The notes under the pieces: generated by a model
Told to the model about the DNA's origin: nothing
Database searches by the model: none
Seen by the model: only the letters and a program-made list of their open reading frames with translations
Shown here: in pieces, positions 29,169-52,700 of the stretch
Numbering within the stretch: the stretch's first letter is position 1
Layout: each line of letters opens with the position of its first letter
From: Arctopsyche grandis
Lineage: Eukaryota; Arthropoda; Insecta; Trichoptera; Hydropsychidae
DNA: 64,000 nt
Direction: 5' to 3'
Assembly (NCBI RefSeq): GCF_051622035.1
Contig: NC_135365.1
Span: 6,913,501 to 6,977,500 of the forward strand
Made by a program: the position numbers and the translations under genes

Positions 29169-29371
29169 CATGTTCAAAGACTTGTAGAAAAGTTATACAC
29201 TGCGTTTATTTCAGATTCTTCTCTTAAAAATTTTAAAATACAAATATATATTATATCAATATAAGATGGTGTTTATATGTTAACAAAATTTGAAAAAAAA
29301 ATGAAATAAAATATGTTGAACTGCACTATGTAATTAGCGAGTATGTATGTATATGTGAAATATTTGGGTTT

Positions 29372-29732
29372 GGTGCAAACGATCGCAAAACGCCAGACAG
29401 ACTGAACCACAGATTAACTGGATGGCTGCTTTAAATGCAATTCTCGACTTCACGAATGATAGATTGCACATCAGATGACGAGTAACCTTTCGATGTGCAC
29501 AGATGCAAGTATTAAAATGGTAATTATTAAAATTGAGTTGGATCTTTCTGGCGAGTTTAGTAAGGCAAAATTCGGAACTAAAGTATCAGAAGCACAGAAC
29601 GTATACAGGGTAGGTATGTTGGGACTTCGGGTAGATTTCGCTTAGTTTAAGTGCGAGCAGTGCGCACGCATAAGGTACACGTGTCGTTAATCTATGGTTC
29701 AGTCTGTCTGGCGCTTGTCGATCGTTTGCACC
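29372..29732. mobile_element. Long-TIR MITE, 361 bp (left arm)
   Basis: Inverted ends GGTGCAAACGATCG...CGATCGTTTGCACC with conserved CGCCAGACAGACTGAACCA inside each TIR (one end GCAAAACG, the other GACAAGCG). The interior shares GATAGATTGCACATCAGATG with the foldback element at 4377-4756, so both belong to one family. Confidence 0.8.
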
Positions 29733-31389
29733 GCATCGGAAATATTTATTTGAATAAAATATTAATTGATACTTAGTATCTCGTATGAAATAAATGTAAA
29801 CATTATCCAAAAAAACACCCATTTTGTGCCAATTTTGTGGATCTGTTTTGTGTTTTGTGCTGTATAAATTGCCTTTGATTATTGTTAGATATCAGAAATA
29901 TATATATTTCTATTAATATATTATACTATACATACATAATTCATAGTTGAAATATTATTACTATGCCTAAAAACGATATTGTGTATATAAGACGTATACA
30001 AAATGCTTTAAAACGATCTCCTTGATGACTCTTATTATTTTTTTAACTATATTTTAAAATAAAAAGGCACATATCTGCTTGATTACAATATCTTACATAT
30101 GATATGAATTATTTTTTTATAAATGTGAGAGCATAAAATTTATAACATGGGGTAAATTGGATATATCAATGTTGAAACGCTTAAAAATATGAATCACTAA
30201 GTCTTTTTAATGTTTTTACTGTGAAAACTATCTACAAAGCTGTACAAACTAAATTATTCTTATTTCACAATACTTTAAAATCACAAATGACAATATTTAA
30301 CACAGGTGTATTTACATATGTATGTGTTAATTATGGATTCAATTTTCATTAAATTACACTTAACAACTGTAAAAATTTAATCTGCCTTAAAATTTTCATA
30401 TCACCAATTTAAGCAACACAAAATAAAATTTATAGTACACATGTTAAATTTATCCATTGTGTATTATAAATGTAAAATATATAATTGACATATAATATAA
30501 TATTGAATCTCAGTAACGCATATTAAAGCACTGTTTGGCATATCCTTTTTATTCTTATCAAAACATGTTTCTATCAAACCAAATCTAGTTTTTAAAATTA
30601 GTAAGATTTTGACAGCAGAAAAATTAACTTGCTAATATCAAACTTCGTATAGGAATTCAATTTTACTATGTATTTTTCAATTATTGACTAAACTTACATC
30701 GTAACTTTGAATATATTTATTATACAAAATTTATCCTATTATGACGACGATGTATGTATATTTTATATATTATTCTTATCATTGCTTTTTTGTATTTTTA
30801 TATATTTTATGAAATGTTATAATTGAATTGTTTTTAAAACTGTATTCACTTACAGTCATGCCAATATGAAAACATTTCAAATTTATCACGAATGAAGACG
30901 AATTATTAAAAGTGTTTTATTTGGAAATGTCATAGTGTATTTATTAAATATTATAATATATATATATATATATATAGTGTATTCAATTTATTTGGATTAA
31001 CAATATTTAATTATTAAAATTATATGGTTAAGGAAAACTACGACAAATGTTCTATTAAAGGCCTAAAAGTTTTGTAACTGCGACAATCTTCTATATTTAT
31101 GTAAAGAAAATATATTATATTTTACTCTTTAATCTTCTGACTGTATTACATTTCTTAAACATGTACCTTATTATAAAAATATATTTATATCATTCAATGT
31201 GATGTTAAAATACATGTTATTCGGTATAATAAACCATAATAAAATATATTAAAACACCATACGATTTTTCATTTGATAACATTCAATTAATTAATAAATA
31301 TATACATGTATGTATGTAAACATATTACTTAAAAATAGTAAGCATACCTTTTTATTGATAATAAAAAAAGAAATATTCATGGTCTGGGT

Positions 31390-31595
31390 CACTGCAAGGA
31401 AAGTGACTTGACGGAAAGTCTAAATATGGAAAACATTAAAACCGATTTATCAACTCGTCGTTAGCGTAGCTCTTATATTATAATGTAACCCTGACACATG
31501 GTAAATATCTTTCAAATCTCTTACCACGGCCTACGCTAACGAAGAGTCGACAAATCGGTTTTAATTTTTTCCATCTTTCGACTTTCCTTGCAGTG
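31390..31595. mobile_element. MITE, 206 bp, TIR CACTGCAAGGAAAGT (left arm)
   Basis: Terminal inverted repeats of about 75 bp, starting CACTGCAAGGAAAGT and ending ACTTTCCTTGCAGTG, with AACCGATTTRTC...GCTAACG conserved within them. The twin copy is at about 36180-36385. Superfamily not assigned. Confidence 0.8.
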
Positions 31596-31643
31596 ACGGC
31601 CACCGAAATATTCAATATGGACGTAAACATCCATCCACAAAGA

Positions 31644-31760
31644 TTTCATTATATTACATAATCATGCAATCATTTCATTATATTACATAATTATGTAATC
31701 ATTGACCTGTTTACTCAAAAGATTGCTTCGACGGAGTAAACAGGTCGAGCTCCTGAAGCT
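31644..31760. repeat. Tandem pair plus small stem-loop in palindrome arm
   Basis: Two copies of a 29-bp unit (ATTTCATTATATTACATAAT type) followed by GACCTGTTTACTC and its inverse GAGTAAACAGGTC around a short loop. The same is inverted in the other arm near 36010-36130. Confidence 0.6.
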
Positions 31761-32520
31761 CACTCGAATCTGGGGACGATGCGCTGGTTTATATACTCGT
31801 TGATTGTGCAACGCGTAGCTTGGTCGGTGAGATCATGTTCTGGAAGATTCCTACGGAGTCAAGATCTTCCTTTGTGTGCTATGTTTGGTGCCAGTGGCGC
31901 GCGCTGAAATTCTCTCTCTTTTTGTCGTACAGCCTTACTTAATGTGCACGAACGAGATACAAGAGGAACAACCTGTTCAAAAAGAGAGACAAAAAGAGAG
32001 ATTTTCAGCGCACGCCACTGCTTGGTGCGTAGTTAGTGGTGAGATCATCAGCTCCGGGGGGGGGGGGGAGTTCCCGTGTACTCGTGATTGCGAGTTTATA
32101 GTGTTTAGCCCTAGTTCGAACAAAGATATTTCAGCCAAGGTTGATGTTACGTGTTCGAACAGGACGCGATGATGTTGTCGACTTCGGGGTAACGGGGGTG
32201 TTGAAATAATAGAGCGTGCTTGGAGCGTGTGTTGTTTATTGGGTTGTCGTACTCCGAGTGGGGCGCTTCAGTCAGACGCGCCGAACCGCGCGCATCCCGG
32301 TGCTGCCAACTTGCATAAAAGCTGGTGTGGCAACCCCCAAGACCGCTGGCTCGGCAATCCTCCACAATGTAATTTGTACAGAACCCTCCAAGTACGTACG
32401 TAGCCATTCGGCTACAGTATATGCAATGGCGAAACTAAATCCCCAGCGCCCCCACTTATACCTGAATACGGTTTTTTTTGCGCGAGTTTTGTCCCTTTGG
32501 ATACGCTTGACAGTTATTGG
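31730..32520 (-). mobile_element. LTR-like retroelement debris (both arms)
   Basis: On the minus strand this stretch has a TATATAAACC box, AATAAACAAC signal and GC-rich 5'-leader-like sequence, similar in layout to the LTR fragments at 13745 and 16487. Ends are unclear. The twin lies at about 35265-36060. A G11 run near 32056 (C10 in the twin) marks it. Confidence 0.4.
31892..32020. mobile_element. hAT MITE, 129 bp (left arm of palindrome 1)
   Basis: CAGTGGCGCGCGCTGAAA at one end and the inverted TTTTCAGCGCACGCCACTG at the other, with TTTTTGTC/GACAAAAAGAGAG inside the arms. Flanks TTTGGTGC and CTTGGTGC are a 7/8 target duplication. Confidence 0.85.
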
Positions 32521-32579
32521 TGTGCTACAGTGGAGGGAACGGCTACCAGAAACAAAGAGAGGAGTTACAATTAGAGGTT

Positions 32580-32745
32580 GTGATCGAGAAATCTCGAGAA
32601 ATTTTGATTCTCGTTTCTCGAGAATATTTTATTGTAAAATTCCGAGATTCTCATTTCTCGAGAATATTTTATTATGAAAATTCGAGATTCTCGTATCTCG
32701 AGAAATTGTTTATTAGAATCTCGAAAATATCGAGAATATTCTTAA
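32580..32745. repeat. TCTCGAGA self-complementary minisatellite
   Basis: Repeated units of about 44 bp built around GATTCTCGTTTCTCGAGAAT. Each unit is itself nearly palindromic. Copies occur in both arms (also about 35035-35200) and in the spacer (about 33430-33535). Confidence 0.75.
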
Positions 32746-33234
32746 TTTATCACTACATGTTTTTACTCAATAAACTGACTGATTTGTATAGTTGTTAACT
32801 CGTAAATAATTTTGTAAAGTATTGTAATATGTATAGATGGTCAGTATTTTTTATCATTTGTCCGGTAAGTTATTATTCGGTCATCGTATACACATGTTAC
32901 AACGAAATCGCACCATTTTTAAGTTACATATATGTATGTGCATGTATGTAGGTACTAGTCACTAGTGCGAAAGTATTCGGTTATGATATCACTAAAACGC
33001 TAGTGAAAATATATTTTCACTGACAATATGACCCCACTTAACATACATAAAACAAAGATTTTTGATTTATTATTTATTTATTCGAGTATTTTTTCCTTAG
33101 ATATTAATCAATTTATAGTCAGTATTTTAATATGCATAGATGGTCAGTATTTTTATTATTTGTCCGGTCACAAAAACACGGGCAAAGCCGGGTAGCAACA
33201 CTGGAAATTTTATAAAATTCTTTTTTACATATTG

Positions 33235-33803
33235 CATATTACTTGAGTAAAAACAATAATTCGGTGAATTGTTACAAACATACCACACCCCAAAACATCG
33301 GAATTTTGACCAATTTGACCAATACCAAACCCTTAAAAATAATCATTATATATGTAGGTACTTTGAAGGACCAAGGAGAAATAAAAAGCAACCATTTACA
33401 TAAAAGAAAACATTTATTTAATATATATGATATAATCTCGAGATTCGAGAATCTTATTTTCTCGAAATATTTGAATCTCGAGAATTCAAGATTTTCTTTT
33501 TTTGTTTCTCGAGATTCTCGAGAATTCTCGAGAAAGTATAATTTTTTTTTAATATAGTTAATTGATTTTTTTAGCATATAAACTTGACAACATACAAAAA
33601 TCAAAAGGACACAAACACTACATATGTATGTATGTTATATCAGGGGTTTACAACTTTATTAAAGACATGACGAAAGAGAGATATAGAGATACAATAGAAC
33701 ATTGAATAGAAAAAAAAGTAAGATTATATAAAAAAAATATTATAAAAGAAGGCATGAAAAGAAAATAAAAATATACAAAAGTAATTTAAAATCGTAAAAA
33801 TAA
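33235..33803. repeat. Palindrome 1 spacer
   Basis: 569 bp present once between the arms. It is AT-rich and holds more of the TCTCGAGA self-complementary repeat (about 33430-33535). Both sides are flanked by the inverted phrase CACGGGCAAAGCCGGGTAGC (33176-33195 and its complement near 33842-33861), a motif common in insect repeats. Confidence 0.85.
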
Positions 33804-33966
33804 CAATATGTAAAAAAGAATTTTATAAAATTTCCAGTGTTGCTACCCGGCTTTGCCCGTGTTTTTGTGACCGGACAAATAATAAAAATACTGACCATCT
33901 ATGCATATTAAAATACTGACTATAAATTGATTAATATCTAAGGAAAAAATACTCGAATAAATAAAT

Positions 33967-34706
33967 TGTAGGAATCTCGTCGTCGTCATCGTCATCGAAA
34001 CCTTCGAGAATATTCCGCAACAACAAAATACATCGAGCGGAACAGCGCCAAGCATTCCAGAAAATACTACGCCTCGACAAAAGTGCATTCCTCTTGTACG
34101 CATCAACAACTAAATGCTCGCACGCATCAATAACCACTTCCATCAAGCGTTCCAGAAAATTCTACGCCTCGACAAAAGTGCATTCCTTTCTTACGCATCA
34201 ACAAACCACCACCATCGGTCAGGCGATTCCAGAAACACTATAAAAGGAGGTACAACCCAAACAACGCGAGTCGACCCACAGCAGCAAGCGTCGACATACA
34301 GCTCCTGACCAGCCACCACTACACTACGCGGACTTGGAAGATCAACCAGCCGGACGAGCCAGCAACACACTGCCGTATCCAGAGACCTTCCGAACATAGC
34401 CGAACAACGAGCCAGCAACACACTGCCGCATCCAGAGACCTTCTGAACATAGCTGAATGCCGAGCCAGCGACACTCTACCATATCCAGAGACCGCTGAAC
34501 GACATACTTTTGCCCACAAATACCATACCTTTGTACAACCATAGGCAAACAATAAAACTTTATAAAACTAGCACAACAGTGTTTCGTTAGGCCGGGATAC
34601 GGTCAACACACATGTACCCCACCTACATTGGTACTACCCCGACGTGATCTACGCAACCTTCTGATCATTCAACAGCACGGTCAACACACACCTACCCCGC
34701 CTACAA
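33967..34706 (+). mobile_element. Solo LTR, 740 bp, TSD AAAT
   Basis: Begins TGTAGG and ends CCTACA (short inverted ends), with AAAT at 33963-33966 and 34707-34710. The left palindrome arm has the empty site with a single AAAT. It contains a TATA-like ACTATAAAAGG near 34238, an AATAAA near 34551 and direct sub-repeats (CGAGCCAGCAACACACTGCC and variants near 34356-34490). TG...CA ends and a 4-bp duplication fit a Ty3/gypsy-type LTR; no internal coding region is present. Confidence 0.9.
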
Positions 34707-35755
34707 AATAATAAATCAAAAATCTTTGTTTTATGTATGTTAAGTGGGGTCATATTGTCAGTGAAAATATATTTTCACTAGCGTTTTAGTGATATCATAA
34801 CCGAATACTTTCGCACTAGTGACTAGTACCTACATGCACATACATATATGTAACTTAAAAATGGTGCGATTTCGTTGTAACATGTGTATATGATGACCGA
34901 ATAATAACTTACCGGACAAATGATAAAAAATACTGACCATCTATACATATTACAATACTTTACAAAATTATTTACGAGTTAACAACTATACAAATCAGTC
35001 AGTTTATTGAGTAAAAACATGTAGTGATAAATTAAGAATATTCTCGATATTTTCGAGATTCTAATAAACAATTTCTCGAGATACGAGAATCTCGAATTTT
35101 CATAATAAAATATTCTCGAGAAATGAGAATCTCGAAATTTTACAATAAAATATTCTCGAGAAACGAGAATCAAAATTTCTCGAGATTTCTCGATCACAAC
35201 CTCTAATTGTAACTCCTCTCTTTGTTTCTGGTAGCCGTTCCCTCCACTGTAGCACACCAATAACTGTCAAGCGTATCCAAAGGGACAAAACTCGCGCAAA
35301 AAAAACCGTATTCAGGTATAAGTGGGGGCGCTGGGGATTTAGTTTCGCCATTGCATATACTGTAGCCGAATGGCTACGTACGTACTTGGAGGGTTCTGTA
35401 CAAATTACATTGTGGAGGATTGCCGAGCCAGCGGTCTTGGGGGTTGCCACACCAGCTTTTATGCAAGTTGGCAGCACCGGGATGCGCGCGGTTCGGCGCG
35501 TCTGACTGAAGCGCCCCACTCGGAGTACGACAACCCAATAAACAACACACGCTCCAAGCACGCTCTATTATTTCAACACCCCCGTTACCCCGAACTCGAC
35601 AACATCATCGCGTCCTGTTCGAACACGTAACATCAACCTTGGCTGAAATATCTTTGTTCGAACTAGGGCTAAACACTATAAACTCGCAATCACGAGTACA
35701 CGGGAACTCCCCCCCCCCCCGGAGCTGATGATCTCACCACTAACTACGCACCAAG

Positions 35756-35884
35756 CAGTGGCGTGCGCTGAAAATCTCTCTTTTTGTCTCTCTTTTTGAA
35801 CAGGTTGTTCCTCTTGTATCTCGTTCGTGCACATTAAGTAAGGCTGTACGACAAAAAGAGAGAGAATTTCAGCGCGCGCCACTG
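35756..35884. mobile_element. hAT MITE, 129 bp (right arm of palindrome 1)
   Basis: Inverted twin of the element at 31892-32020. It was inserted before the arms duplicated, because both arms carry it at the same place. Confidence 0.85.
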
Positions 35885-38021
35885 GCACCAAACATAGCAC
35901 ACAAAGGAAGATCTTGACTCCGTAGGAATCTTCCAGAACATGATCTCACCGACCAAGCTACGCGTTGCACAATCAACGAGTATATAAACCAGCGCATCGT
36001 CCCCAGATTCGAGTGAGCTTCAGGAGCTCGACCTGTTTACTCCGTCGAAGCAATCTTTTGAGTAAACAGGTCAATGATTACATAATTATGTAATATAATG
36101 AAATGATTGCATGATTATGTAATATAATGAAATCTTTGTGGATGGATGTTTACGTCCATATTGAATATTTCGGTGGCCGTCACTGCAAGGAAAGTCGAAA
36201 GATGGAAAAAATTAAAACCGATTTGTCGACTCTTCGTTAGCGTAGGCCGTGGTAAGAGATTTGAAAGATATTTACCATGTGTCAGGGTTACATTATAATA
36301 TAAGAGCTACGCTAACGACGAGTTGATAAATCGGTTTTAATGTTTTCCATATTTAGACTTTCCGTCAAGTCACTTTCCTTGCAGTGACCCAGACCATGAA
36401 TATTTCTTTTTTTATTATCAATAAAAAGGTATGCTTACTATTTTTAAGTAATATGTTTACATACATACATGTATATATTTATTAATTAATTGAATGTTAT
36501 CAAATGAAAAATCGTATGGTGTTTTAATATATTTTATTATGGTTTATTATACCGAATAACATGTATTTTAACATCACATTGAATGATATAAATATATTTT
36601 TATAATAAGGTACATGTTTAAGAAATGTAATACAGTCAGAAGATTAAAGAGTAAAATATAATATATTTTCTTTACATAAATATAGAAGATTGTCGCAGTT
36701 ACAAAACTTTTAGGCCTTTAATAGAACATTTGTCGTAGTTTTCCTTAACCATATAATTTTAATAATTAAATATTGTTAATCCAAATAAATTGAATACACT
36801 ATATATATATTATAATATTTAATAAATATACTATGACATTTCCAAATAAAACACTTTTAATAATTCGTCTTCATTCGTGATAAATTTGAAATGTTTTCAT
36901 ATTGGCATGACTGTAAGTGAATACAGTTTTAAAAATAATTCAATTATAACATTTCATAAAATATATAAAAATACAAAAAAGCAATGATAAGAATAATATA
37001 TAAAATATACATACATCGTCGTCATAATAGGATAAATTTTGTATAATAAATATATTCAAAGTTACGATGTAAGTTTAGTCAATAATTGAAAAATACATAG
37101 TAAAATTGGATTCCTATACGAAGTTTGATATTAGCAAGTTAATTTTTCTGCTGTCAAAATCTTACTAATTTTAAAAACTAGATTTGGTTTGATAGAAACA
37201 TGTTTTGATAAGAATAAAAAGGATATGCCAAACAGTGCTTTAATATGCGTTACTGAGATTCAATATTATATTATATGTCAAATATATATCTTACATTTAT
37301 AATACACAATGAATAAATGTAACATGTGTACTATAAATTTTATTTTGTGTTGTTTAAAATCATTGGTGATATGAAAATTTTAAGGCAGATTAAATTTTTA
37401 CAGTTAAGTGTATCTGAATGAAAATTGAATCCATAATTAACACATACATATGTAAATACACCTGTGTTAAATATTGTCATTTGTGATTTTAAAGTATTGT
37501 GAAATAAGAATAATTTAGTTTGTACAGCTTTGTAGATAGTTTTCACAGTAAAAACATTAAAAAGACTTAGTGATTCATATTTTTAAGCGTTTCAACATTG
37601 ATATATCCAATTTACCCCATGTTGTAAATTTTATGCTCTCACATTTATAAAAAAATAATTCATATCATATGTAAGATATTGTAATCAAGCAGATATGTGT
37701 CTTTTTATTTTAAAATATAGTTAAAAAAATAATAAGAGTCATCAAGGAGATCGTTTTAAAGCATTTTGTATACGTCTTATATACACAATATCGTTTTTAG
37801 GCATAGTAATAATATTTCAACTATGAATTATGTATGTATAGTATAATATATTAATAGAAATATATATATTTCTGATATCTAACAATAATCAAAGGCAATT
37901 TATACAGCACAAAACACAAAATTGGCACAAAATGGGTGTTTTTTTGGATAATGTTTACATTTATTTCATACGAGATACTAAGTATCAATTAATATTTTAT
38001 TCAAATAAATATTTCCGATGC

Positions 38022-38382
38022 GGTGCAAACGATCGACAAGCGCCAGACAGACTGAACCATAGATTAACGACACGTGTACCTTATGCGTGCGCACTGCTCG
38101 CACTTAAACTAAGCGAAATCTACCCGAAGTCCCAACATACCTACCCTGTATATGTTCTGTGCTTCTGATACTTTAGTTCCGAATTTTGCCTTACTAAAAT
38201 CGCCAGAAAGATCCAACTCAATTTTAATAATTACCATTTTAATAATTGCATCTGTGCACATCGAAAGGTTACTCGTCATCTGATGTGCAATCTATCATTC
38301 GTGAAGTCGAGAATTGCATTTAAAGCAGCCATCCAGTTAATCTGTGGTTCAGTCTGTCTGGCGTTTTTCGATCGTTTGCACC
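38022..38382. mobile_element. Long-TIR MITE, 361 bp (right arm)
   Basis: Inverted twin of 29372-29732 at the outer end of palindrome 1. Small sequence differences show the arms are not identical copies. Confidence 0.8.
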
Positions 38383-38464
38383 AAACCCAAATATTTCACA
38401 TATACATACATACTCGCTAATTACATAGTGCAGTTCAACATATTTTATTTCATTTTTTTTTCAA

Positions 38465-38477
38465 TTTTTAATTTTGC
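38465..38477. other. Junction between the two palindromes
   Basis: 13 bp, mostly A/T, separate the end of A' (sequence next to the Rim 3' UTR) from the start of B' (SNX14 intron 8). An ATTTTG shared with the Rim side near 29286 could shorten the gap to about one base. No insertion element or N run marks the joint. Confidence 0.85.
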
Positions 38478-39809
38478 CGTTTTATTAGAGTCGGTTTGTG
38501 GGAAGCTTAGACATATTTTTATAAATCTTAACTTATCTAGGTGTAATTTCATCGACTACCACCCTAGCATGTAATCAGCAATCAGCTAGTTGCTTGACTC
38601 ATGTCTTTTAAACTGATTTTTGAGCTCTAACAACACGTCTGTCTCAATTTGAATGTCATTTCTTGTAATATCCAAGTATGAGAGTTAGTTACAGAATTGA
38701 AAAGCTTGCGTTACGGCACAATAGTACACAAACAAGCAGTGTGTATGACAAATCAAAGACTTTGACGGTTAAATCTGGTGCACTAACAGTGAATTTATAT
38801 GTGAAACAAGTTTGTATGAGCCATATAGTATAGAACACTTTGATTGATACTTGTAAGCGTTACTATTTGAAATGCCAGTAGGGCGCACGAGCTGATAAAC
38901 AAGGCAGGTAGTCTCGATTCGAAACAAATTAGTGCATTTACATCCATATTACATATTGAAGATTATTCTATAGTACATTTTTGCCAATCAGTCTATACTT
39001 ACGAATTCGGCGGTGGCTTTTTAGGTTCGGCGACCACGTTTGGCATGACTAAGTTATAAAACTAAAATGCAAATAATGATATGTTAATTTAAATGATCAT
39101 TACATTAATGTCACGTAAGAGGTTTATCAATTTAGTACCTCTTGACTGTCGAAGAATTTGGGCGCCCACTCTCGATCCAAAAGCGTGAACACATAGTCGT
39201 ACGACTCGTAGATAACTTTACTAGTTTGCAACTTGGCTATATTCATTGGACCGTAATTCAATATAATACTAAATTGTTCTATATACTCTATGTCGAACGG
39301 AATAAACGACATACTCTTATGAGAAAAATAGTTATTATATAATTCACTAGCACATTTAAATAAGGCTTCTTTTTCCGTTTCGTTCATCTCCGGTTGAAGC
39401 ATCCTCTTGTTGAATTCATCTAAAATAATTGAATAAACACTTGATAAGCATCAAAAATTAAATTCATATTGAAATACAACACAATTTTCATACCGATATC
39501 CAAACAAAATTGTAAAAGATGAATTTTTCCTTCGGATTTCATGAATTGCATAAAAGCATACAGATATTCAGGAGTTTTCAACATGTCCGAAACTTCTAAA
39601 TTTAATAGTCTCATTTGTTTATAATTATTTTTTTTAATAAAATTTTGTAAAAATTCCACCTGAAATATAAACAAAACAAAAAAATACACTTTAATATTTC
39701 AAAATGCACGTAAATGGGATTATTTCGTGTTGATTTTTACATGATGATTTGGAAGATCAGGCAATTTAGACATTTTCCTGTCACCCGTTGCTAAAATTAC
39801 TAATGTATT

Positions 39810-40453
39810 TGTTCCGACCAAGTCTTCATGGTCAGCTTTTGTGGCGTTACGACCAAAGGAGCCGTTTTGGAGGGAGATCGGCGCCGAGCGCGCGTCCCCG
39901 CCTCGGTCGAGTGAACATCTCTGTTCGCTACCGAGTTGGTTCCCACCACCGAGTCCCGATCAGCTCAGCCTTGATCGGCAGACGATACTGGAAGTACAGC
40001 TTCAGTATACGTCCGGTGAGAAGTGAGGAATTCCTGGTCTCTCTTCGTCGAAGTCAGATCACGTAGCCACGTGGTTGAGTGAGGTTACCATAACCTCTTG
40101 AACACGTGCGCGCTAATTTCAAGTCGGACTCCCCCCCCCCCTTTTCTGTCCCCCCTGCTTGATCTCTGTATATACATATATATATAAAATACAGTCACCA
40201 TACAAACAGAATTATAACCTGTTTTCATTACTATTCAATTTCCCGCCTTTGTCCCGTATCACCCTCACTTACGCACACTGTACGAGAGAGAGAGAGATAT
40301 ACATCGAGCCGAGCCGACAGCAGCAGAGACCAGACCGCAGACGACGACCTGTGGATCCCTTGGAGGAAACCAGCCCCGCCCACGCTTACCACGAGCTTCT
40401 ACGAAATCGACTTCCGGGGTGCTCGCGAGTTGAACATCCCTGGAGTCTGTACA
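39810..40453 (+). mobile_element. Solo LTR, 644 bp, TSD GTATT
   Basis: Starts TGTTCCGACC, ends CTGTACA, flanked by GTATT at 39805-39809 and 40454-40458. The intact SNX14 exon 5 at 48003-48156 is the empty site. It has a TATA-like run near 40175-40190. The 5-bp duplication and TG...CA ends fit an LTR retrotransposon. It disrupts exon 5 of the inverted SNX14 copy. Confidence 0.9.
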
Positions 40454-40769
40454 GTATTGATGATACTAGGATCGGCCAATATGTCAGTTAGCGATAGTAA
40501 AACCCACCCGGAAAATATGTCTTGAATCAGTATTTTGAATAATCTGTAAATAGATAGCACATTTTAATTAACAAATAATAATATTTTGACCATTAGATAA
40601 ACATGTGTCATTAGATAAACTCTTTCCGGATAAAAAGTCAGTTTATCATACCGTCAACAAAATCGGCATTGGTTTCAAGGCTAACCATTTGATTTATTGA
40701 AATGTAATGATTCATTTTAATATATTTATACGCTATCAAATTTTAATTTCGTTGAAAAATTTAAAAGAT

Positions 40770-41105
40770 TTGGAAAAACAGTCATCGCAAATGGCACCAA
40801 AATCTGTCTATATGGAGTTGAGACGTGGACATTGAAAGCAGCAGATAGAAGAAGAATTGACGCTTTCGAGATGTGCTGTTGGAGGCGGATGTGTCCATTC
40901 TAGAAGACATACAATCAAGGGCAGGCTTTCTACGATCTGCCTGAGACGCATTCTCCAGTTCTTCAATCACATAGCACGAAGAAGAGAGTGTGAAAAAGTA
41001 GGTTGTGGTCGGTGGTGTGGAGGAAAGATGAGGAAGAGGCAGATCTCCAGAGAAGAGGAGACCTTGCCACAGTCCATCATCAACGAAGGTGCACCTCGTG
41101 ACTGA
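40770..41105 (+). mobile_element. RTE-like LINE 3' fragment
   Basis: One frame reads ICLYGVETWTLKAADRRRID and the next LRRILQFFNHIARRRECEKV, both typical of the C-terminus of RTE reverse transcriptases. Frameshifted; only in the left arm of palindrome 2. Confidence 0.72.
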
Positions 41106-41599
41106 TCAGGACCCACCTCTCCCACGAGTTCGAAACAGCTAGTCGATCTTCGATAAGATTCCTGAACTGGGACAAATCCACCTAAATGCTATAAATTTAA
41201 GTTAAAAACCAATACTAATGGACATTCATTTTATATACGATGAAAAAACCAGGTCGAGAGTGCAAGCAGACGAGATAAATTTTTTTAGATAAGGTGAGTA
41301 GAGGTATGGCTGAAAATGTAAAGAAACTTTTACTTGCTTCATTAAGATACCTTAAATATGATAGATAAGGCAAATTTTAAAGACGAGTCAAGATTTTCAA
41401 AAGCAAATTTTGTCAACTGTCTCTAAAGATAATAGTCAGGTGGATAAGACTAGCGCTTGGAAGAGTCAACCGCTAATATTTGGCAAAAAATTGAAGGACG
41501 TGGTACAATCGGAAGGAATATACCAATCGGTGGAACACAAAATGGTTATGAGCATTTGAAACCTGACGCAAATTAGATTCCGAGATAAGTAGAGTCGGT

Positions 41600-42010
41600 T
41601 ATGTAGAGCCTGATTTCATATACAGCCAGTATTAGTATACTATGCTTTAGAGCAGAGTGTTCACGGGTTCAAGTCCCACTAGATTTGGCCAGACCTTGGT
41701 TTGTGACTCCAGATCGATCGTTTCTTATCAAAGTTTGCCAATGTTTCTGATTTTCATTGAAACGGTTCCTTTAAAAATTGACATCTCCTTTCCTATCTCT
41801 CTTGCTAATCTCAAGCTATTCAGCGTCTTGAAGTTCGCCAATTTGAATATAAAATGCTGCAAAATTTTCTCAATAGATGTCACTGTTGATTTTGTATGCA
41901 TTCGCATGCATAAAATGCTTATGTATATTAATTGCCTGTGTTGTATCTGTATAAGTGCACTCGTCGCATTGGAGCGATCTGTAAAGGCGAGTTTCATGTT
42001 CTATTAACGA
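41600..42010 (+). mobile_element. SINE, copy 4 (left arm of palindrome 2)
   Basis: Plus-oriented: B-box GGTTCAAGTCCCACT, then GGCCAGACCTTGGTTTGTGA and a long body to CGATCTGTAAAGGCGAG. The right arm keeps only the distal part at about 47595-47810. Confidence 0.75.
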
Positions 42011-43331
42011 TTTCGCCTGGAAAGAGTTAGCCAACGATCACTCATAGATGCTTATAAGTAGCCCTAAATAACTAACTTGCTGTTCATGTGTTTCTTCGGA
42101 AGTAAAAATGGCATTATCGCTTCCGTAATAAACTTTAAGTACTGAAGTTCTTGCTTTCTACTAGTAAGTGCCGGATGTAAATTATACTTCAATGGTCCCA
42201 AAAGAGCTGCTTTCTCTAAACTATCTATTCCTTTCATTTCCATAAGCTTTTTCGCCTCATTGCACAAAGTGTAGTGACGCAGTGCACACGGTATAAGCTT
42301 ATTCGTAATAAGTTGTCCAATATTCACCTAAACAAAACAATATTTAAAAATATATTTAAATCTAAAATATTATGTAAAAAAATTGAAACAGTTGAAATAT
42401 ACCTTCAAAACTCGATTAAATAATGAACTGGAAGCATATCGCAAAAGGAAGCGGATTTCAACAAGTAAGATTTCTTCTTTCGTCAATTTGCAATACCACG
42501 GGATAATAAATTTTCTAATGATAATGTTATAAAACTGGAAATTTTCAAACACACAAGATTATAAAAAGATAATGACAACAGCGTATTGAATGGTGTAAAT
42601 TTATAATTACATTTTCTATAGACTGGTCGAGTTGTTTATGAACATGAAGGTTGATCCACGGTTCTTGACAGTTGTTGCCCAAATGCCGTAAACAATTTTC
42701 ATTTTCGCAAATGTTACACACCTTTAAAAACACACAATAGTTACTATCAGTCACCAGGGCATGATATACATACATATATTATATATGAACAGACAAATTA
42801 CTCACCTTTACAGCGTATTGACTGTTAATTGTGGCCTCTTTAGATCGCCTGAATGTAACGATTGGTTTTAATAGAAATTGTATTATGCTAAATTTGAACT
42901 TTAAAATCGAATAGAATAATACAAATCCGAGGATGTAACTAATTACGAAACAAACGGCACCTGTAACGCTGAAAAAATAAAATCGATTTATTTGGCAGAG
43001 TATAAGTGTATGTGAAGTCATCGGACTTGATAAGAAATTGACCTGATTTTCAATATGTTGAAAAACTTTCATTTGCGTTTTAATTTTGCAATATAAATAA
43101 TTAGTAAAAATTACTTACGACGGGTCGTGTAAATGGATATATGTAGTTAGTTTTAACTGGTTTAAAATTTATTGTAAATATCTAACCTGAAAGTTAAGGT
43201 AGCGACTATGAAGAGTAGCGAAAAATAAATTGCACATTTAATTTTACTATACTTTCTTAAGTTAGATAGAATAATGGGTTGAAAATTGTTTTCAAGCATT
43301 CTCGAAATGTGTTATCTTGGAATAATGCAAC

Positions 43332-44873
43332 CAGTGGTGGACTGGGACTGAAATCAGTGCATGCCAGGAGTCAAAGGGGGCCCCCACCCAGGGTTAAAAA
43401 AATTTGTCCCCCCCCCCCCATATAACAAAATTTTCTTCTTTCCATCACGCTAAAAATCAAGGGCAAAAAATAAATAAAATTTTCAAAAATGGGAATATAC
43501 AAATTTAGGTACAAGAAAAATGGCAAAAGCAAAATAGATCCATAAATTACATTGTATATTTCGTTTTAATCCTTGTCATATAATGCATCATAAAAGAATG
43601 CGGCATAAATTCGGCTTGGCTTGGGGGGGCAGGCAAAGATTGGTCAAATTGAATTTTTTTTCAAAAAATCTTTTTTATATCGGAATAAAAATGGAAAATA
43701 TAAAATATGAAAAAATTAAGCTTATTTTTGAAAAAATAATTATAAAAAAATATTATGTAAAAAGCCAAAAAAGCGCCGCAGACGAAAATTTTTTTCCAAA
43801 AATCTTCACATGGTTAACAAAAATCGACCATCAAAATGTATCACTATATCAAAAAATATACGAACATTCGGAAAAATAAACGATACACATCTGTTTTTGA
43901 GACAAAATAAAGTAAAGGGGACCTTTCTAACGATTCGCTCCATGGGATGAACAATTTCTAAGAATGTTACTAATGGCATACCACTTAAAAACCAAAATAT
44001 ACTTGCTTCAAAATAATAAAATCTTTTTTTTTCAAAGCACATAGCAGCGATTATTTTATTAGTTACCCAAAAGTAACATATGTACATAAGAAATAAACGC
44101 AGCATTCATAGATCCATAGTATCTCATTAATCATTAAATCCATAATATTTTCTAAATTCACACTATTCCTTAATTTAGGGGGGCGAGTGCCCCCCCAAAT
44201 TACGTCCCTGAAAACAAAAAATGCATAATATTTTCAATTAATGTTAATCGAAAATCAGGATTTTGGGGAGGGGGCCCCTATCCTATGTTTCTATATACAT
44301 GGATTTGTCTAGATTAGGAATAGATTTAATATTCGGAAACTGTTTAAAATTGTGTATTTAAATCTTACTATATCGTCGAAGTATAATCAAATGTTATTTT
44401 GAAAGTATGTATGAAGTAAATTTAAATCGCTGGTTGATGATGAATCGTCCTATCAAAATTGTTTTAAGCAATTCAGTTTATATTATTCAGGGAAATTTGT
44501 TTATTCCCATTTTTATTTCAGTAGGTAGTTGTTACATAGGTATTGGTATATGCATAATATTGAGGTTGGAAATGGGCCCGGTAAAAGGGCCCACGCAAAT
44601 GTTGAAACTTACATTTCGAGCCTAATAAAAAAAGTTAACCGATCCTTGGGCTGTTAAAGCAGGCATTAGTTGTTTGTGTATATCGTAAGAAATTTGTTTT
44701 GTTGAAATACCCAAACTCTAGGTCCCAAAGTGCAATATCCTATAAATTTTTACACACGTGAAAATAGTTAAATTAAAAAGTTATTTAATTTTACTGAGGG
44801 CCCATATTTTCTAACGGATAGTGGGACCCACATGCCATCGGGCATGTACGCTTGTATGGCCAGTCCGCCACTG
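43332..44873. mobile_element. Non-autonomous hAT element, 1542 bp, TSD AATGCAAC
   Basis: Ends CAGTGGTGGACTGG and CCAGTCCGCCACTG are inverted. An 8-bp duplication AATGCAAC flanks it (43324-43331, 44874-44881), and the right palindrome arm near 46275 has a single copy, the empty site. The inside is AT-rich with C and G homopolymer runs and only short open frames; no transposase recognised. Confidence 0.92.
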
Positions 44874-45394
44874 AATGCAACCATTTGTTCGATTGAATAG
44901 CAACTGACAGCTGTCACCCGTTGGCCATGTTTACGTACTTTTTTTGCGATTTTCTCTTGGCCGTAACACGCGTTATTCATTACATGACCTTAATTTCAGA
45001 GGTTTATTTTACGGTAAACGGAGTATTATAAACGGATGTTCCGTAATCGAGATTTTAGTGACTTGCGCGAGATCGATTCTTGCGGAATAATCAGCGAACC
45101 GTATTTTGCTGGTAAGTCTATTTTTGTCAATATTTATATAAAACGGCGAGTATCTATGGTTCAGTATACAAGTGGTTAGTATTAATAATAAAAGGTCAGT
45201 ATTTAAACACAAATGGACGGTTTTAATGGTAAGTTTTTTTTTTTTTTTTTTGAAGAATGGCCAATATTACTTTTTGATCTCAATAGACAATTTCATCCAA
45301 CAGGTACTGTTATTTGCTGTGGCGAATGTACATATGTCAGATTTTTATTATACTGTCCATTTGTTATCTATACTGAAATTTAATAATATAATAC

Positions 45395-45549
45395 TGTTGC
45401 GTGGACGTGAAGAGGGGGCTTCCAGAATCGGAGAGAAAGACGCAGGAGGGATTGTAGAAGGTGTTTATTTGTGTGCTCTCGTCGGCGCTCCAGGTCGGAA
45501 TGGTTTCCAAGCTGAGAGCGCCCCATATTTATACCCGTTGGGCGCAACA
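45395..45549 (-). mobile_element. Short LTR-like element, 155 bp
   Basis: Ends TGTTGCG and CGCAACA are inverted. On the minus strand it has TATAAATA followed by AATAAACA, the order expected in an LTR. Possible 3-4 bp target duplication (TAC). It lies in the palindrome 2 spacer. Confidence 0.65.
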
Positions 45550-45564
45550 TACATACATACATAC

Positions 45565-45790
45565 CAGTGGCGGCTCGTCCATATGGGCTGCGGGACTGCA
45601 GTCCCCCCCAGTACAGTACAAATGCATGCTATTTTTGCCGTTTACACAAGCTGCCGGCTGCAGACCTCCCAGTATAGTACATATGCATGCTATTTTTGTT
45701 TTCATTCGATCACCGGTTTGGTTAACGAGCTACTACAGCCTGATTTATCTCTGCAGCCCCACCACTATGAATTTTCACCAGCCGCTACTG
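45565..45790. mobile_element. hAT MITE, 226 bp, TSD ATACATAC
   Basis: Ends CAGTGGCGGCTCGTCC and CAGCCGCTACTG (inverted, imperfect) with ATACATAC at 45557-45564 and 45791-45798. It contains a diverged internal duplication (ATGCATGCTATTTTTG twice). Non-coding. It sits in the palindrome 2 spacer. Confidence 0.85.
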
Positions 45791-46530
45791 ATACATACAC
45801 ATGTAAACTATTGGTCGATGAGTGTAAGTTGATGAGTTAAAATGAATTGTCTATTGAGACCAAAAAGTAATATTGGCCATTCTTCAAAAAAATAAAAAAC
45901 TTACCATTAAAACCGTCCATTTGTGTTTAAATACTGACCTTTTATTATTAATAGTAACCACTTGTATACTGAACGATAGATACTCGCCGTTATATATAAA
46001 TATTGACTATTTAATATAAATATTGACAAAAATAGACTTATCAGTAAAATACGGTTCGCTGATTATTCCGCAAGAATCGATCTCGCGCAAGTCACTAAAA
46101 TCTCAATTACGGAACATCCGTTTATAATAGTCCGTTTAACGTAAAATAAACCTCTGAAATTAAGGTCATGTAATGAATAACGCGTGTTACGGCCAAGAGA
46201 AAATCGCAAAAAAAGTACGTAAACATGGCCAACGGGTGACAGCTGTCAGTTGCTATTCAATTGAACAAATGGTTGCATTATTCCAAGATAACACATTTCA
46301 AGAATGCTTGAAAACAATTTTCAACCCATTATTCTATCTAACTTAAGAAAGTATAGTAAAATTAAATGTGCAATTTATTTTTCGCTACTCTTCATAGTCG
46401 CTACCTTAACTTTCAGGTTAGATATTTACAATAAATTTTAAACAAGTTAAAACTAACTACATATATCCATTTACACGACCCGTCGTAAGTAATTTTTACT
46501 AATTATTTATATTGCAAAATTAAAACGCAA

Positions 46531-46797
46531 ATGAAAGTTTTTCAACATATTGAAAATCAGGTCAATTTCTTATCAAGTCCGATGACTTCACATACACTTA
46601 TACTCTGCCAAATAAATCGATTTTATTTTTTCAGCGTTACAGGTGCCGTTTGTTTCGTAATTAGTTACATCCTCGGATTTGTATTATTCTATTCGATTTT
46701 AAAGTTCAAATTTAGCATAATACAATTTCTATTAAAACCAATCGTTACATTCAGGCGATCTAAAGAGGCCACAATTAACAGTCAATACGCTGTAAAG
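46531..46797 (+). CDS. SNX14: SNX14 exon 1: N-terminus with membrane segment
   Basis: Encodes MKVFQHIENQ through a hydrophobic run FYFFSVTGAVCFVISYILGF to NSQYAVK; donor GTGAGT. One open frame spans a possible GTCAAT...TTTTTCAG mini-intron, but removing it would break the frame, so it is treated as exon. The inverted copy has the identical 97-codon open frame at 42779-43072. Confidence 0.8.
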
Positions 46798-49700
46798 GTG
46801 AGTAATTTGTCTGTTCATATATAATATATGTATGTATATCATGCCCTGGTGACTGATAGTAACTATTGTGTGTTTTTAAAGGTGTGTAACATTTGCGAAA
46901 ATGAAAATTGTTTACGGCATTTGGGCAACAACTGTCAAGAACCGTGGATCAACCTTCATGTTCATAAACAACTCGACCAGTCTATAGAAAATGTAATTAT
47001 AAATTTACACCATTCAATACGCTGTTGCCATTATCTTGTAATAATCTTATGTGTTTAAAAACTTCCAGTTTTATAACATTATCATTAGAAAATTTATTAT
47101 CCCGTGGTATTGCAAATTGACGAAAGAAGAAACCTTACTTGTTGAAATCCGCTTCCTTTTGCGATATGCTTCCAGTTCATTATTTAATCGAGTTTTGAAG
47201 GTATCTTTCAACTGTTTCAATTTTTTTACATAATATTTTAGATTTAAATATATTTTTAAATATTGTTTTGTTTAGGTGAATATTGGACAACTTATTACGA
47301 ATAAGCTCATACCGTGTGCACTGCGTCACTACACTTTGTGCAATGAGGCAAAAAAGCTTATGGAAATGAAAGGAATAGATAGTTTAGAGAAAGCAGCTCT
47401 TTTGGGACCATTGAAGTATAATTTACATCCGGCTCTTACTAGTAGAAAGCAAGAACTTCAGTACTTAAAGTTTATTACGGAAGCGATAATGCCATTTTTA
47501 CTTCCGAAGAAACACATGAACAGCAAGTTAGTTATTTAGGGCTACTTATAAGCATCTATGAGTGATCGTTGGCTGACTCTTTCCAGGCGAAATCGTTAAT
47601 AGAACATGAAACTCGCCTTTACAGATCGCTCCAATGCGACGAGTGCACTTATACAGATACAATACAGGCAATTAATATACATAAGCATTTTATGCATGCG
47701 AATGCATACAAAAATCAACAGTGACATCTATTGAGAAAATTTTGCAGCATTTTATATTCAAATTGGCGAACTTCAAGACGCTGAATAGCTTGAGATTAGC
47801 AAGAGATTGATAGCGTATAAATATATTAAAATGAATTATTACATTTCAATAAATCAAATGGTTAGCCTTGAAACCAATGCCGATTTTGTTGACGGTATAA
47901 TAAACTGACTTTTTATCCGGAAAGAGTTTATCTAATGACACATGTTTATCTAATGGTCAAAATATTATTATTTGATAATTAAAATGTGCTATCTATTTAC
48001 AGATTATTCAAAATACTGATTCAAGACATATTTTCCGGGTGGGTTTTACTATCGCTAACTGACATATTGGCCGATCCTAGTATCATCAATACATTAGTAA
48101 TTTTAGCAACGGGTGACAGGAAAATGTCCAAATTGCCTGATCTTCCAAATCATCATGTAAAAATCAACACGAAATAATCCCATTTACATGCATTTTGAAA
48201 TATTAAAGTGTATTTTTTTGTTTTGTTTATATTTCAGGTGGAATTTTTACAAAATTTTATTAAAAAAAATAATTATAAACAAATGAGACTATTAAATTTA
48301 GAAGTTTCGGACATGTTGAAAACTCCTGAATATCTGTATGCTTTTATGCAATTCATGAAATCCGAAGGAAAAATTCATCTTTTACAATTTTGTTTGGATA
48401 TCGGTATGAAAATTGTGTTGTATTTCAATATGAATTTAATTTTTGATGCTTATCAAGTGTTTATTCAATTATTTTAGATGAATTCAACAAGAGGATGCTT
48501 CAACCGGAGATGAACGAAACGGAAAAAGAAGCCTTATTTAAATGTGCTAGTGAATTATATAATAACTATTTTTCTCATAAGAGTATGTCGTTTATTCCGT
48601 TCGACATAGAGTATATAGAACAATTTAGTATTATATTGAATTACGGTCCAATGAATATAGCCAAGTTGCAAACTAGTAAAGTTATCTACGAGTCGTACGA
48701 CTATGTGTTCACGCTTTTGGATCGAGAGTGGGCGCCCAAATTCTTCGACAGTCAAGAGGTACTAAATTGATAAACCTCTTACGTGACATTAATGTAATGA
48801 TCATTTAAATTAACATATCATTATTTGCATTTTAGTTTTATAACTTAGTCATGCCAAACGTGGTCGCCGAACCTAAAAAGCCACCGCCGAATTCGTAAGT
48901 ATAGACTGATTGGCAAAAATGTACTATAGAATAATCCTCACTATGTAATATGTATGTAAATGCACTATTTTGTTTCGAATCGAGACTACCTGCCTTATTT
49001 ATCAGCTCGTGCGCCCTACTGGCATTTCAAATAGTAACGCTTACAAATATCAATCAAAGTGCTCTATACTATATGGCTCATACAAACTTGTTTCACATAT
49101 AAATTCACTGTTAGTGCACCAGATTTATCCGTCATACACACTGCTTGTTTGTGTACTATTGTGCCGCAACGCAAGCTTTTCAATTCTGTAACTAACTCTC
49201 ATACTTGGATATTACAAGAAATGACATTCAAATTGAGACGGACATCTTATTAGAGCTCAAAAATCAGTTTAAAAGACATGAGTCAAGCGACTTGCTGATT
49301 GCTGATTACATGCTAGGGTGGTAGTCGATGAAATTACACCTAGATAAGTTAAGATTTTTAAAAATATGTCTAAGCTTCCCACAAACCGACGCTAATAAAA
49401 CGCATCGTAAAAAACACACTCGCTTAACATTTTATATGGCTTGTGGGAGGCTTAATTCTACATATATAATGTGTATTCGATATTATACCACATTAAACAT
49501 ATTTATAAGTGTGTGCGTGTGTGTGTGTTCCATTTTAAGGACGTTGCTTCCGAACAAATCAGAAGTCAACAAAAGGATTGAAAACAATCCATCGCTGATT
49601 GTGAAACCACTGTCGAAGCTGAAGGACGCCTTTAAGTCTCAAGCTATCGACGGTCAGTTTCTGGATTTGAGCGATATGTCGAGTAAAACTGGCAGCGAGG

Positions 49701-52700
49701 GAGATCTAAGCGACGGTGCAGATATGGAGATGCAGTATTCGGACATCCTTGCAAATTATACGAGGCTCAAAAACAAAGACATGAGCACGTGGAAGGTCTC
49801 AATTGAGGACGTCGTCGAAAAGAAGGTTAAATCTTAATTCAAATAAGCTAATTTTATCCGTAGAAACTGAACTGATAACTGTAAATCAAACTGCAGGCTA
49901 CAAATAAAACTGGGTCTTTGGACTGGTTCCTTATCATCGTGAACAAAGTAGACCCTCACGGTATGGGCGATGATAGTCAGTGGATCGTGGAAAGAACTGA
50001 TAATGACATTTACGTTCTGAAGGAGAAACTAGTAGAGTTTCACGGAGAAGCAACGCTAGGAGACTATAATATACCTTCGAAGAGGTGAAACTTTATACTA
50101 TGTGCTTGAAAACTAATGCAAGCGACGTACTGATAAAATTTGTGTTGCTTTCAGGTTCAAAACACCGGCTGATATTCGCAAGAAAAAATATGAAAAGTTC
50201 GTGCAGCACATTATGCTTATACCTTTGCTCCGTTGCAGCAATTTATTGCACATGTTTTTGACGGCCGATGCCGATTTTACATTCCTCGCTGAACAGGCCA
50301 AGTCGGACTCGTCGAATTTTCCCGACATCAGCAGCCTGTATCAGACTGTGACGCACAAACTGCGAAAAGAGAGAGGGCAGCATTTGGATACTTTTTTGCA
50401 AGCGTTTTTAGTGTCCACTGACGTCATATACTATCAGTCTTTGTAAGTTCGAAAGGTTTCGGTGATAATATTTTGAGGTTAAGTTTACATATGAGGATGA
50501 TGCAGTATTGCTTATGTACGGTGTGTTATTGTAGGAATGAAGAAAAGAAAGGAAAAGAAGGAGAGTGTGATGAAGAAGCCACCGATGTCGTGAACGATGT
50601 CACGTTTGCGTCTCCGGAAACTAGTGCGTTTGAAAAACGCTTGTCGAGAAGCGTTTTTGAGAATAATTTTAATGTTTTAGATTCAGAAAGTAATTTCCCG
50701 TCGCTCTGCACTAAAGATGGTGATGACACAAATTGGAATTTCACCTCGTGCGCACTCTTTATACGTAAGTGAATCGTTTTTGTGGATTATGTATGTTTGA
50801 AATTTGTTTATTTATTTACATATTAGCCACAGTGACATTATAGAATACTCTAACGCGTCACTGTGCCCAGATATATTAGCATAATGCAAATACTATATAT
50901 AAGAAAATTAGCGAGACATGTATGTGGTAAAGATTCCTGACAGATGACGCTGTTCAGGACCACGGTTGGGATGTGGCGGTTAAGATGAAGATCAAACACG
51001 TGCGTTTTCAGTCATGTTGTTTATTAAGACGATACGTGTGGAGGTTTAGCGACCAACCGCGCGGAGCGCAGGTCCAACTGCGACTAACCGTTATATCTCT
51101 GCCCCTTTTCATCCCCTTCTCACAATCAATCGTAACATACTCTTTCTCAGCCTTTCGTTCAATTCAAACCCTACATATATGCTATAGATCAGGGGTCCCC
51201 AACCTTTTTGGAAAATGGGCCGGTTCAGAATTTCAAAATGTATGGAGGGCCGAATGAAAATAAATCTTATTGGAATCCAATTTGAACAAATTTGCACATG
51301 TGGAACTGACCAATTTTCAGAGTGTGCACGTGCAAAAGATCAACTATGACGTTCCTTTCAGAATCCCATTTGGGATTCTCTCAAAAGACGTTTAATTTTA
51401 ACCAGGGCTTTTTTTTGAAGACAAAAAGGGGCCGTAACTCACTTCTTGTCAAGTTTTTTGTTGGAAAAGATGATATTCAAATTATGTTATATAGAATATT
51501 CGTTTGAAACATAAATAATGCTGAGAAAAAATGTTGCCAAAACGCCGTTCCACCGCGTTGCATGGGAAAAAACCCTGGTTTTCACTACCTGGAACCCTGA
51601 AAGCAATATTTTTAACCGAAATCGTCAAGGCAATATTTCGAAACTATTTTTTCTCATTAAAATATCACTAGTAGGCCAAAAGGACCGAGGGCCGTAGATT
51701 GGGGACACCTGCTATAAATAATACATTTTTGAAATCATATTCAAACAGTGGTGACGTAGTGGGTAGGATGGTTTTTGCCAATTTAATGGATGAACCGCTT
51801 CAACAATGTAATCAGATAAATTGGCAAACTCTGGTCGGAAATTATCGACTTGGAGTCACAAAGACTTAAATCACCAGCAGCAGTAATGATTATACTTAGA
51901 ATAAATTCTTCTGAATCGCGGTCAGCTCACGGGATCGAACCCGGCGACCTATCGGTGCTTAGTATCAACACAACCACTGAGCCATGCTGCTGGCTAAATG
52001 GCGAGAAGCAGTTAGCAGAAGCAGGCCCGGGGCGTTACAAATTTCTGGAGATCCCTATACAAATATACTAGGCTGGGTTCCAAACGTACCCCCATTCCAC
52101 ATAACATATTTTCCAATTAAAACAGATATTTTTTGTATTGTATTATATATCGTGAATAAAATATGATAAAGCTCTTCTTTTTGAAATTTGAATTTGAAAT
52201 ATGAAAACCACGAGAATGTGGAAGCTATAGTATCCGATTTATGATAAGAACACTCAAAGGCACGGGACGCATAGATGGACCCCAGCTATAATGGGTGTGT
52301 TTTTATGTTATTGTTAATTCGTACGATCTTGTTATTTCGACAAGATTCTCTTACATTTCTTCAAATATGGGAATCACCGCTATCGATCACTAATCAATAC
52401 AAGGATAAAATATCACCGAAAACACTACAGGAGGAATTTTCAGAACTTAAAACTATCTAAAAAAAAAATTTGCGGCATACTTGTGTTTTCACCTTTAGAC
52501 TGATTTAAATCAACGATTTTCAACCGCCGTTCGCAGACTAAAAGTTTTATGTCGGTTGCTGAATGAAGACTAAAACTTATGCTTAATGCACTTTCGGAAA
52601 TGCGTACGTGCTCGCATACACGCTCCTATTGACGTTTATTATCGTCTGTGATATCTTGAGAAAACAATAAAAGTAATACGTTATTTGCACATCAAGTTCA

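Follow-up and report, generated by a model that had tools for sequence, protein, structure and literature searches.

The window, a 64,000-nucleotide stretch of chromosome from the caddisfly Arctopsyche grandis, carries the end of Rim on its left and SNX14 on its right, as a preliminary description had proposed. The joined last exons of Rim match the RIM1 chain 2q3x (E 3.3e-15), the PX region of SNX14 matches the SNX14 chain 4bgj (E 1.3e-7), and the Pfam domains agree, with PXA, RGS and PX present in SNX14. From the Rim 3′ flank into SNX14, two giant palindromes adjoin each other, with their arms in the order A A′ B′ B:

28980–29168, plus strand: last coding exon of Rim from open frames, end of the C2B domain, stop codon at 29166–29168
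29290–33234, plus strand: A, palindrome 1 left arm, made up of the 3′ flank of Rim and intergenic sequence, with AATAAA at 29305
33804–38464, minus strand: A′, inverted arm of palindrome 1 by self-alignment, with a solo LTR inside
38465–38477, no strand: J2, joint of the Rim end and the SNX14 end (A′/B′), ∼13 bases of filler
38478–45292, minus strand: B′, inverted arm of palindrome 2 by self-alignment, with SNX14 coding exons 1–9
45845–49402, plus strand: B, right arm of palindrome 2 by self-alignment
46304–53593, plus strand: full SNX14 gene from stop-free exons, coding exons 1–9 (46304–48894) inside B, structure read outside 50766–52944

Self-BLAST of the window confirms two imperfect giant inverted repeats placed back to back, with 29290–33234 inverted at 33804–38464 and 38478–45292 inverted at 45845–49402; strict alignment shifts the end points first proposed by no more than a few bases. 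Palindrome 1 is made up of an outer alignment (29285–33075 against 38469–34706, 21 mismatches in 3,760 aligned bases) and an inner one (33072–33234 against 33966–33804, 163 of 163 identical), for a total of 21 differences in 3,923 aligned bases. Palindrome 2 consists of four aligned blocks between 38478–45292 and 49402–45845, with 48 mismatches in 3,557 aligned bases. The unmirrored centres measure 569 and 552 bases, in keeping with the short spacers and arms a few percent different that had been described. After the window was shuffled once at random, minus-strand matches did not exceed 42 bases.

The block does not lie exactly between two single-copy genes, as had also been suggested, because both arms of palindrome 2 hold SNX14 coding exons 1–9; the 5′ half of SNX14 is duplicated within it. 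The left edge of A is 121 bases beyond the Rim stop codon. The middle block A′B′ repeats its own flanks A and B in inverted and circularly permuted form, and the copied segment of ∼7.5 kb, which runs from directly after Rim to the ninth coding exon of SNX14, sits inside its own original. The two SNX14 5′ halves thus stand head to head, the right one in the full gene and the left one truncated.

The two copies each of A and B lie in a single 20 kb block. A probe from SNX14 exons 1–5 (46290–47540) has two matches in the 476 Mb assembly, both at this locus, and a probe from A (30450–32560) has two full-length places, again both here, among the 40 of 1,604 candidates that were scored; within that scope the probes found no further full copy of either. 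A transposon with giant inverted ends was rejected on this ground, as probes from the single-copy parts of A and B gave no full copies elsewhere among the candidates scored.

The preliminary description treated the two hairpins as separate things. The order A A′ B′ B favours a single event as the best reading of both palindromes. Their most likely origin is either a closed (circular) copy captured in reverse or serial template switching. We favour, with a probability of about 0.5, one local rearrangement in which a closed, permuted copy was captured in reverse at its own locus and replaced the interior. The ancestral order would have been Rim-A-[interior]-B-SNX14. An extra copy of the segment would have closed on itself, its SNX14 end of B joining its Rim end of A to make J2 with ∼13 bases of filler, and would then have opened inside the interior. 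Captured in reverse, with loss of the chromosomal interior there, it would yield A-A′-B′-B, in which one interior remains, split into halves at the two ends of the inverted block. We infer a DNA circle as the closed copy and a double-strand break as its site of capture. In support of this reading, the outer ends of A and B adjoin at J2 within A A′ B′ B, and SNX14 exons 1–9 are present in B′. If it is correct, neighbouring giant palindromes are not necessarily independent, since a single reverse capture makes twins, and such capture would be revealed by the arm order A A′ B′ B, so that paired palindromes in long-read assemblies could be tested simply from their sequence.

The centre of palindrome 1 bears on the polarity of the event. 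It contains the following elements:

32572–33234, plus strand: 5′ part of transposon E, a dispersed element, cut at 33234, breakpoint J1 (33234|33235), from loci L020–L026 against the window
33235–33433, no strand: N segment, 199 bases, matched by itself alone among 40 scored candidates
33434–33803, minus strand: 3′ part of transposon E, which runs on into the inverted arm, from the alignment of L022
33967–34705, no strand: solo LTR-like insertion TGTAGG...CCTACA in A′, target-site duplication AAAT

Positions 1338–1872 of the transposon E locus L022 align to 33966–33434 as one piece. Transposon E is therefore whole where A is cut: it is unbroken across 33803/33804 in the inverted copy but ends at 33234 in A. 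Because it is continuous into A′ and cut in A, spacer 1 belongs to the inverted block, in favour of reverse capture of a closed copy. Transposon E also ends ∼30–70 bases before its usual 3′ end, where it meets the N segment, which indicates a second break that the best model does not explain.

The same assignment changed the standing of a double-ended fold-back, in which both ends of one double-strand break fold back, copy ∼4 kb each and join at J2. Fold-back inverted duplications with a disomic spacer have been described (PMC3907307), and can be induced by double-strand breaks in yeast (PMC10622511). The inverted duplication of each palindrome around an unduplicated spacer (here 569 and 552 bases) resembles the mark of this process, for which spacers of 766–70,466 bases are given in 21 sequenced junctions (PMC3907307), and in yeast, short insertions formed by fold-back and sealed by end joining are reported (PMC11724301). 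Here, however, two spacers lie back to back and interstitially. The loops should moreover continue from the non-inverted arm, whereas transposon E places spacer 1 on the inverted one. This explanation, initially favoured, was downgraded on that evidence; it survives solely if two transposon E copies lay inverted to each other, and we now regard it as hardly probable.

Palindrome 2 contains further insertions and a second, less informative centre:

39810–40453, no strand: solo LTR-like insertion TGTTCC...TGTACA with target-site duplication GTATT, interrupting exon 6 of the left SNX14 copy
40402–43299, minus strand: truncated SNX14 copy, equal to the public Arctopsyche grandis protein P0001 (304 of 304 residues)
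40740–41797, no strand: 1,058 bases without counterpart in the right arm
43332–44873, no strand: hAT-like element CAGTGG...CCACTG, 8-base target-site duplication AATGCAAC
45293–45394, no strand: U segment, 102 bases, matched by itself alone among 40 scored candidates
45395–45824, no strand: F segment, a piece of a low-copy repeat in which a hAT-type MITE (∼45562–45790) is nested, from repeat comparison

The sequence at 40740–41797 was probably deleted on the right arm, as a dispersed repeat crosses its edge. Breakpoint J3 is located somewhere within 45292–45845. The F segment has one other copy, L012, which shares both of its ends, so the F segment may be a whole element and not one cut by the rearrangement, and this centre may have either polarity, with a spacer that continues from the inverted or from the non-inverted copy. 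A reading of the F segment as an LTR cut at 45824 was withdrawn, as its sole other copy ends at the same base.

The two spacers share no long sequence (the best is 59 bases at 64%). This bears on a tandem duplication with junction J2 whose middle was later inverted and whose palindrome centres then underwent deletions. Such a history yields the same order and draws on the known instability of palindrome centres (PMC10766186). A plain inversion would place the same sequence in both spacers, and since they differ that version was rejected or downgraded; the version with extra deletions is doubtful. Serial template switching in repair (MMBIR/FoSTeS-like) is a possible, if tentative, alternative. 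Synthesis would run forward through A to 33234, pass to the other strand ∼0.57 kb ahead, return to the Rim 3′ end, jump to SNX14 intron 9, go back through B and ∼0.5 kb further, and then run forward again. This path gives the same order and single-copy interior, needs no circle and suits the filler at J2, but three template switches are required, including a long jump between points that happen to coincide with both ends of a single segment.

For the closed copy captured in reverse, the ingredients are already known; the arrangement is unusual. Circle-mediated (eccDNA) duplication is recognized by permuted order (Takahashi and Innan 2020, PMC7188851), and we find both a circularly permuted duplicate (A A′ B′ B) and a joint of two donor ends inside the copy (J2, 38465–38477). 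In the scheme drawn there, however, the copy is placed at another location, and the cases in that paper made no new coding-gene copies, whereas the present copy is reversed within its own donor and includes nine coding exons. An inverted triplication by ODIRA likewise has an inverted middle block flanked by two palindromic joints (PMC10766186). It was rejected on copy number and order: ODIRA gives three copies with the middle one inverted, whereas A and B are present twice and the middle is permuted. The short 3′ end of transposon E, the ambiguous polarity at the second centre and the unequal divergence of the palindromes count against the closed-copy model.

This inequality (21/3,923 versus 48/3,557, P 0.0002) means that a single event needs gene conversion, constraint or mosaic alleles. 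Mismatches in palindrome 1 number 18 in the outer half and 3 in the inner half (P 0.0014), a pattern for which causes besides conversion are possible. In palindrome 2, exons differ at 5 of 1,430 bases and non-coding sequence at 43 of 2,127 (P 9e-6). A reading in which exons are protected is weakened because the contrast with introns 1–8 is small (P 0.018, or P 0.26 without intron 3) and because the stretch from SNX14 exon 1 through intron 8, taken together, has diverged less than the sequence flanking it (P 2e-6).

Lower divergence in exons is also what alleles would show, and the arm divergence is within the size possible for alleles; 3.8% of BUSCOs are duplicated in an earlier assembly of the species (PMC12576367). 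An assembly artefact, whether from chimeric reads or from a reversed join of two haplotypes, is nonetheless unlikely judging from the sequence. Three insertions with target-site duplications (AAAT, GTATT and AATGCAAC) distinguish the arms and lie on both sides of the symmetry, which shows an evolved locus. A haplotype join makes neither J2, with its filler, nor a cut transposon E, the window contains no letter N, and the probes gave no other full copy among the candidates scored.

TIM is a Z marker in moths. In this assembly TIM is on contig C3 and not on C11, and its position does not settle sex linkage. As in sex-chromosome palindromes with arm-to-arm conversion (PMC8981503, PMC3723533), the inverted arms bear genes and the inner half of palindrome 1 is nearly free of differences, although the arms here are less alike overall than those described there.

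The locus documents how a truncated gene copy arose. Interrupted in exon 6 by the solo LTR, the inverted SNX14 copy encodes membrane segments and nearly the whole PXA domain before an LTR-derived end of ∼17 residues; the public 304-residue annotation with this LTR tail could be taken for SNX14 itself. Across exons 1–9 the arms differ at 4 of 280 silent sites and 1 of 1,148 replacement sites (P 0.006). For a left copy free of constraint, the probability of seeing no more than one replacement would be 0.04 from coding changes alone and 0.015 with introns 1–8 as yardstick; lower Poisson values (0.0025, 0.0001) ignore rate error and are not relied on. It is tempting to speculate that this is a working locus, whose shared centre would be a divergent promoter for the SNX14 halves, whose left copy would be selected as a membrane-anchored, PXA-only, LTR-ended protein, and whose palindrome read-through would form dsRNA against SNX14; a single rearrangement would then have created a hairpin-RNA locus. 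We hold this improbable. Its selection part leans on the 1 replacement versus 4 silent differences in exons 1–9. Drosophila hairpin-RNA loci likewise have inverted repeats that match a gene elsewhere (PMC10292708), whereas the arms here are ∼3.6 kb and contain introns. The locus is an insect case suited to testing arm-to-arm conversion and hairpin RNA, and its longest perfect duplex runs reach 1,091 and 748 bases.

Self-comparison of the window bears out the preliminary description of two giant back-to-back inverted repeats: a pair of large inverted repeats lies end to end. In one shuffle of the window, minus-strand matches did not exceed 42 bases. Palindrome 1 comprises arm A on the Rim side and its inverted copy A′, which differ at 21 of 3,923 aligned bases; palindrome 2 comprises arm B on the SNX14 side and its inverted copy B′, with 48 mismatches in 3,557 aligned bases.

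Components of the two palindromes, with positions in the window; spacers 1 and 2 are their unmirrored centres.
29290-33234 and 33804-38464: palindrome 1, inverted pair (self-comparison)
33235-33433: segment N, 199 bases, spacer 1; matches only itself among the best 40 candidates scored
33434-33803: piece of transposon E, a dispersed transposon, 370 bases, spacer 1
33967-34705: solo LTR-like insertion, right arm of palindrome 1; target-site duplication AAAT
38478-45292 and 45845-49402: palindrome 2, inverted pair (self-comparison)
39810-40453: solo LTR-like insertion, left arm of palindrome 2; target-site duplication GTATT
40740-41797: 1,058 bases present in B′, missing from B
43332-44873: hAT-like element, left arm of palindrome 2; target-site duplication AATGCAAC
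Spacer 2: segment U (102 bases, matches only itself among the best 40 candidates scored), repeat piece F (430 bases) and 20 further bases

The length difference at 40740-41797 is probably a deletion in the right arm, because a dispersed repeat spans the edge of that stretch. The solo LTR of palindrome 1 contains a 53-base minisatellite (2.6 copies, 34354-34493).

The left flanking gene is Rim, identified by a PDB match of its last exons, once joined, to RIM1 (2q3x, E 3.3e-15). Its stop codon (29166-29168) is followed by 121 bases before arm A, which contains an AATAAA at 29305. The right gene is SNX14, with PXA, RGS and PX domains (Pfam; PX matches 4bgj, E 1.3e-7). The palindromes had been placed exactly between these genes. 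They are not, since SNX14 coding exons 1–9 (46304-48894) lie within the right arm of palindrome 2, with an inverted second set in the left arm and the outer end in intron 9. All placeable exons of the right SNX14 copy read without stops. Between Rim exons, a retroelement-like stretch holds two 338-base units in tandem that are 95% similar (22878-23548), and a perfect TA array of 46.5 copies occupies 15005-15097.

The order of blocks is A A′ B′ B. Read in reverse, the middle block is B-A, a circular permutation of A-B, and at the A′/B′ joint J2 (38465-38477) the SNX14 end of B meets the Rim end of A across ∼13 bases of filler. Permuted order is described as the mark of circle-mediated duplication in PMC7188851. 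From sequence, the arrangement fits a single event for both palindromes, in which a closed A-B copy would open in its interior and then be captured in reverse; serial template switching would yield the same arrangement and also fits. Plain tandem duplication followed by inversion is opposed by the centres, as comparison of spacers 1 and 2 found no long sequence common to both.

Fold-back rearrangements with unduplicated spacers are described in PMC3907307 and PMC10622511, and short fold-back insertions in PMC11724301; ODIRA and hairpin RNAs are treated in PMC10766186 and PMC10292708, respectively. Transposon E counts against a fold-back origin. At locus L022, the equivalent of 33234 is directly followed by 33803-33434 in reverse complement; a single alignment spans 33966-33434, from the inverted arm into spacer 1. 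Spacer 1 is thus part of the inverted block, because E crosses the border between it and the inverted arm unbroken but is cut at 33234 in arm A. E also lacks its last ∼30–70 bases at the border with N, marking a second break. Piece F, which contains a nested MITE, occurs in one further copy (L012, 88%) that is bounded at the same two points, so F is silent on the position of the break at the second centre.

An assembly artefact, through chimeric fold-back reads or the joining of two haplotypes, is unlikely. The window contains no base given as N. Chimeric fold-back reads should leave near-identical arms, but three insertions, each flanked by a target-site duplication, set the actual arms apart; haplotype joining creates neither J2 nor the cut in E. 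An earlier public assembly, GCA_029955255.1 (485.66 Mb, 676 contigs and 3.8% duplicated BUSCOs; PMC12576367), is not the same size as the assembly searched here and has another number of contigs (here 475.7 Mb, 189 contigs; the window is C11:6913501-6977500). In the assembly searched, a probe of SNX14 exons 1–5 (46290-47540) matched two places (2 of 2 candidates scored), and a probe of A (30450-32560) matched two at full length, the rest being repeat fragments (best 40 of 1,604 candidates scored). All four places lie within the window, and no empty-site contig appeared among the probe matches scored. Near its outer end, A carries a dispersed MITE (29342-29762) that makes up most of the arm's first 416 bases, with 38 other places among the best 40 candidates scored and half copies at 4377-4756. 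Separately, small contigs C84 (28072-28770) and C122 (16238-16936) each carry an intact 241-residue triose-phosphate isomerase frame, besides a long one on C3, and may be bacterial, as contaminant or symbiont.

Divergence between arms is uneven. Palindrome 1 has 18 mismatches in its outer half versus 3 in its inner half (P 0.0014), and a 1,245-base stretch without mismatches, though with gaps, as seen in 0.8% of random placements. In palindrome 2, coding exons hold 5 mismatches in 1,430 bases versus 43 in 2,127 non-coding bases, and the most divergent parts are SNX14 intron 9 (17/525) and the 5′ flank. Gene conversion, constraint on a left copy functional until the LTR insertion in exon 6, and capture of another allele could each contribute. 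Intron 3 has 6 mismatches in 76 bases; these 6, out of the 48 in palindrome 2, cluster in 35 bases (42541-42575).

In a literature search on SNX14/snazarus and caddisfly/Trichoptera, none of the 15 papers listed out of 996 had both SNX14 and caddisfly terms. Passages of papers listed by further searches do not mention the locus, which does not prove its absence from print. No full-length A. grandis SNX14 protein was found by name among 38 matches to the joined full-length query (best 7,996 candidates scored, some rows without an organism name), and a C-terminal search gave a single match, to a beetle protein, with none from A. grandis. The truncated left copy has a public counterpart: one of 40 proteins retrieved with joined SNX14 exons (P0001, sorting nexin-14-like, Arctopsyche grandis) agrees with the spliced translation of the left copy at every residue (304 of 304). 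It retains profile positions 2–176 of 181 of the PXA domain and ends in an LTR-derived tail of ∼17 residues. This LTR-truncated copy is the only protein named as A. grandis among the SNX14 matches listed.
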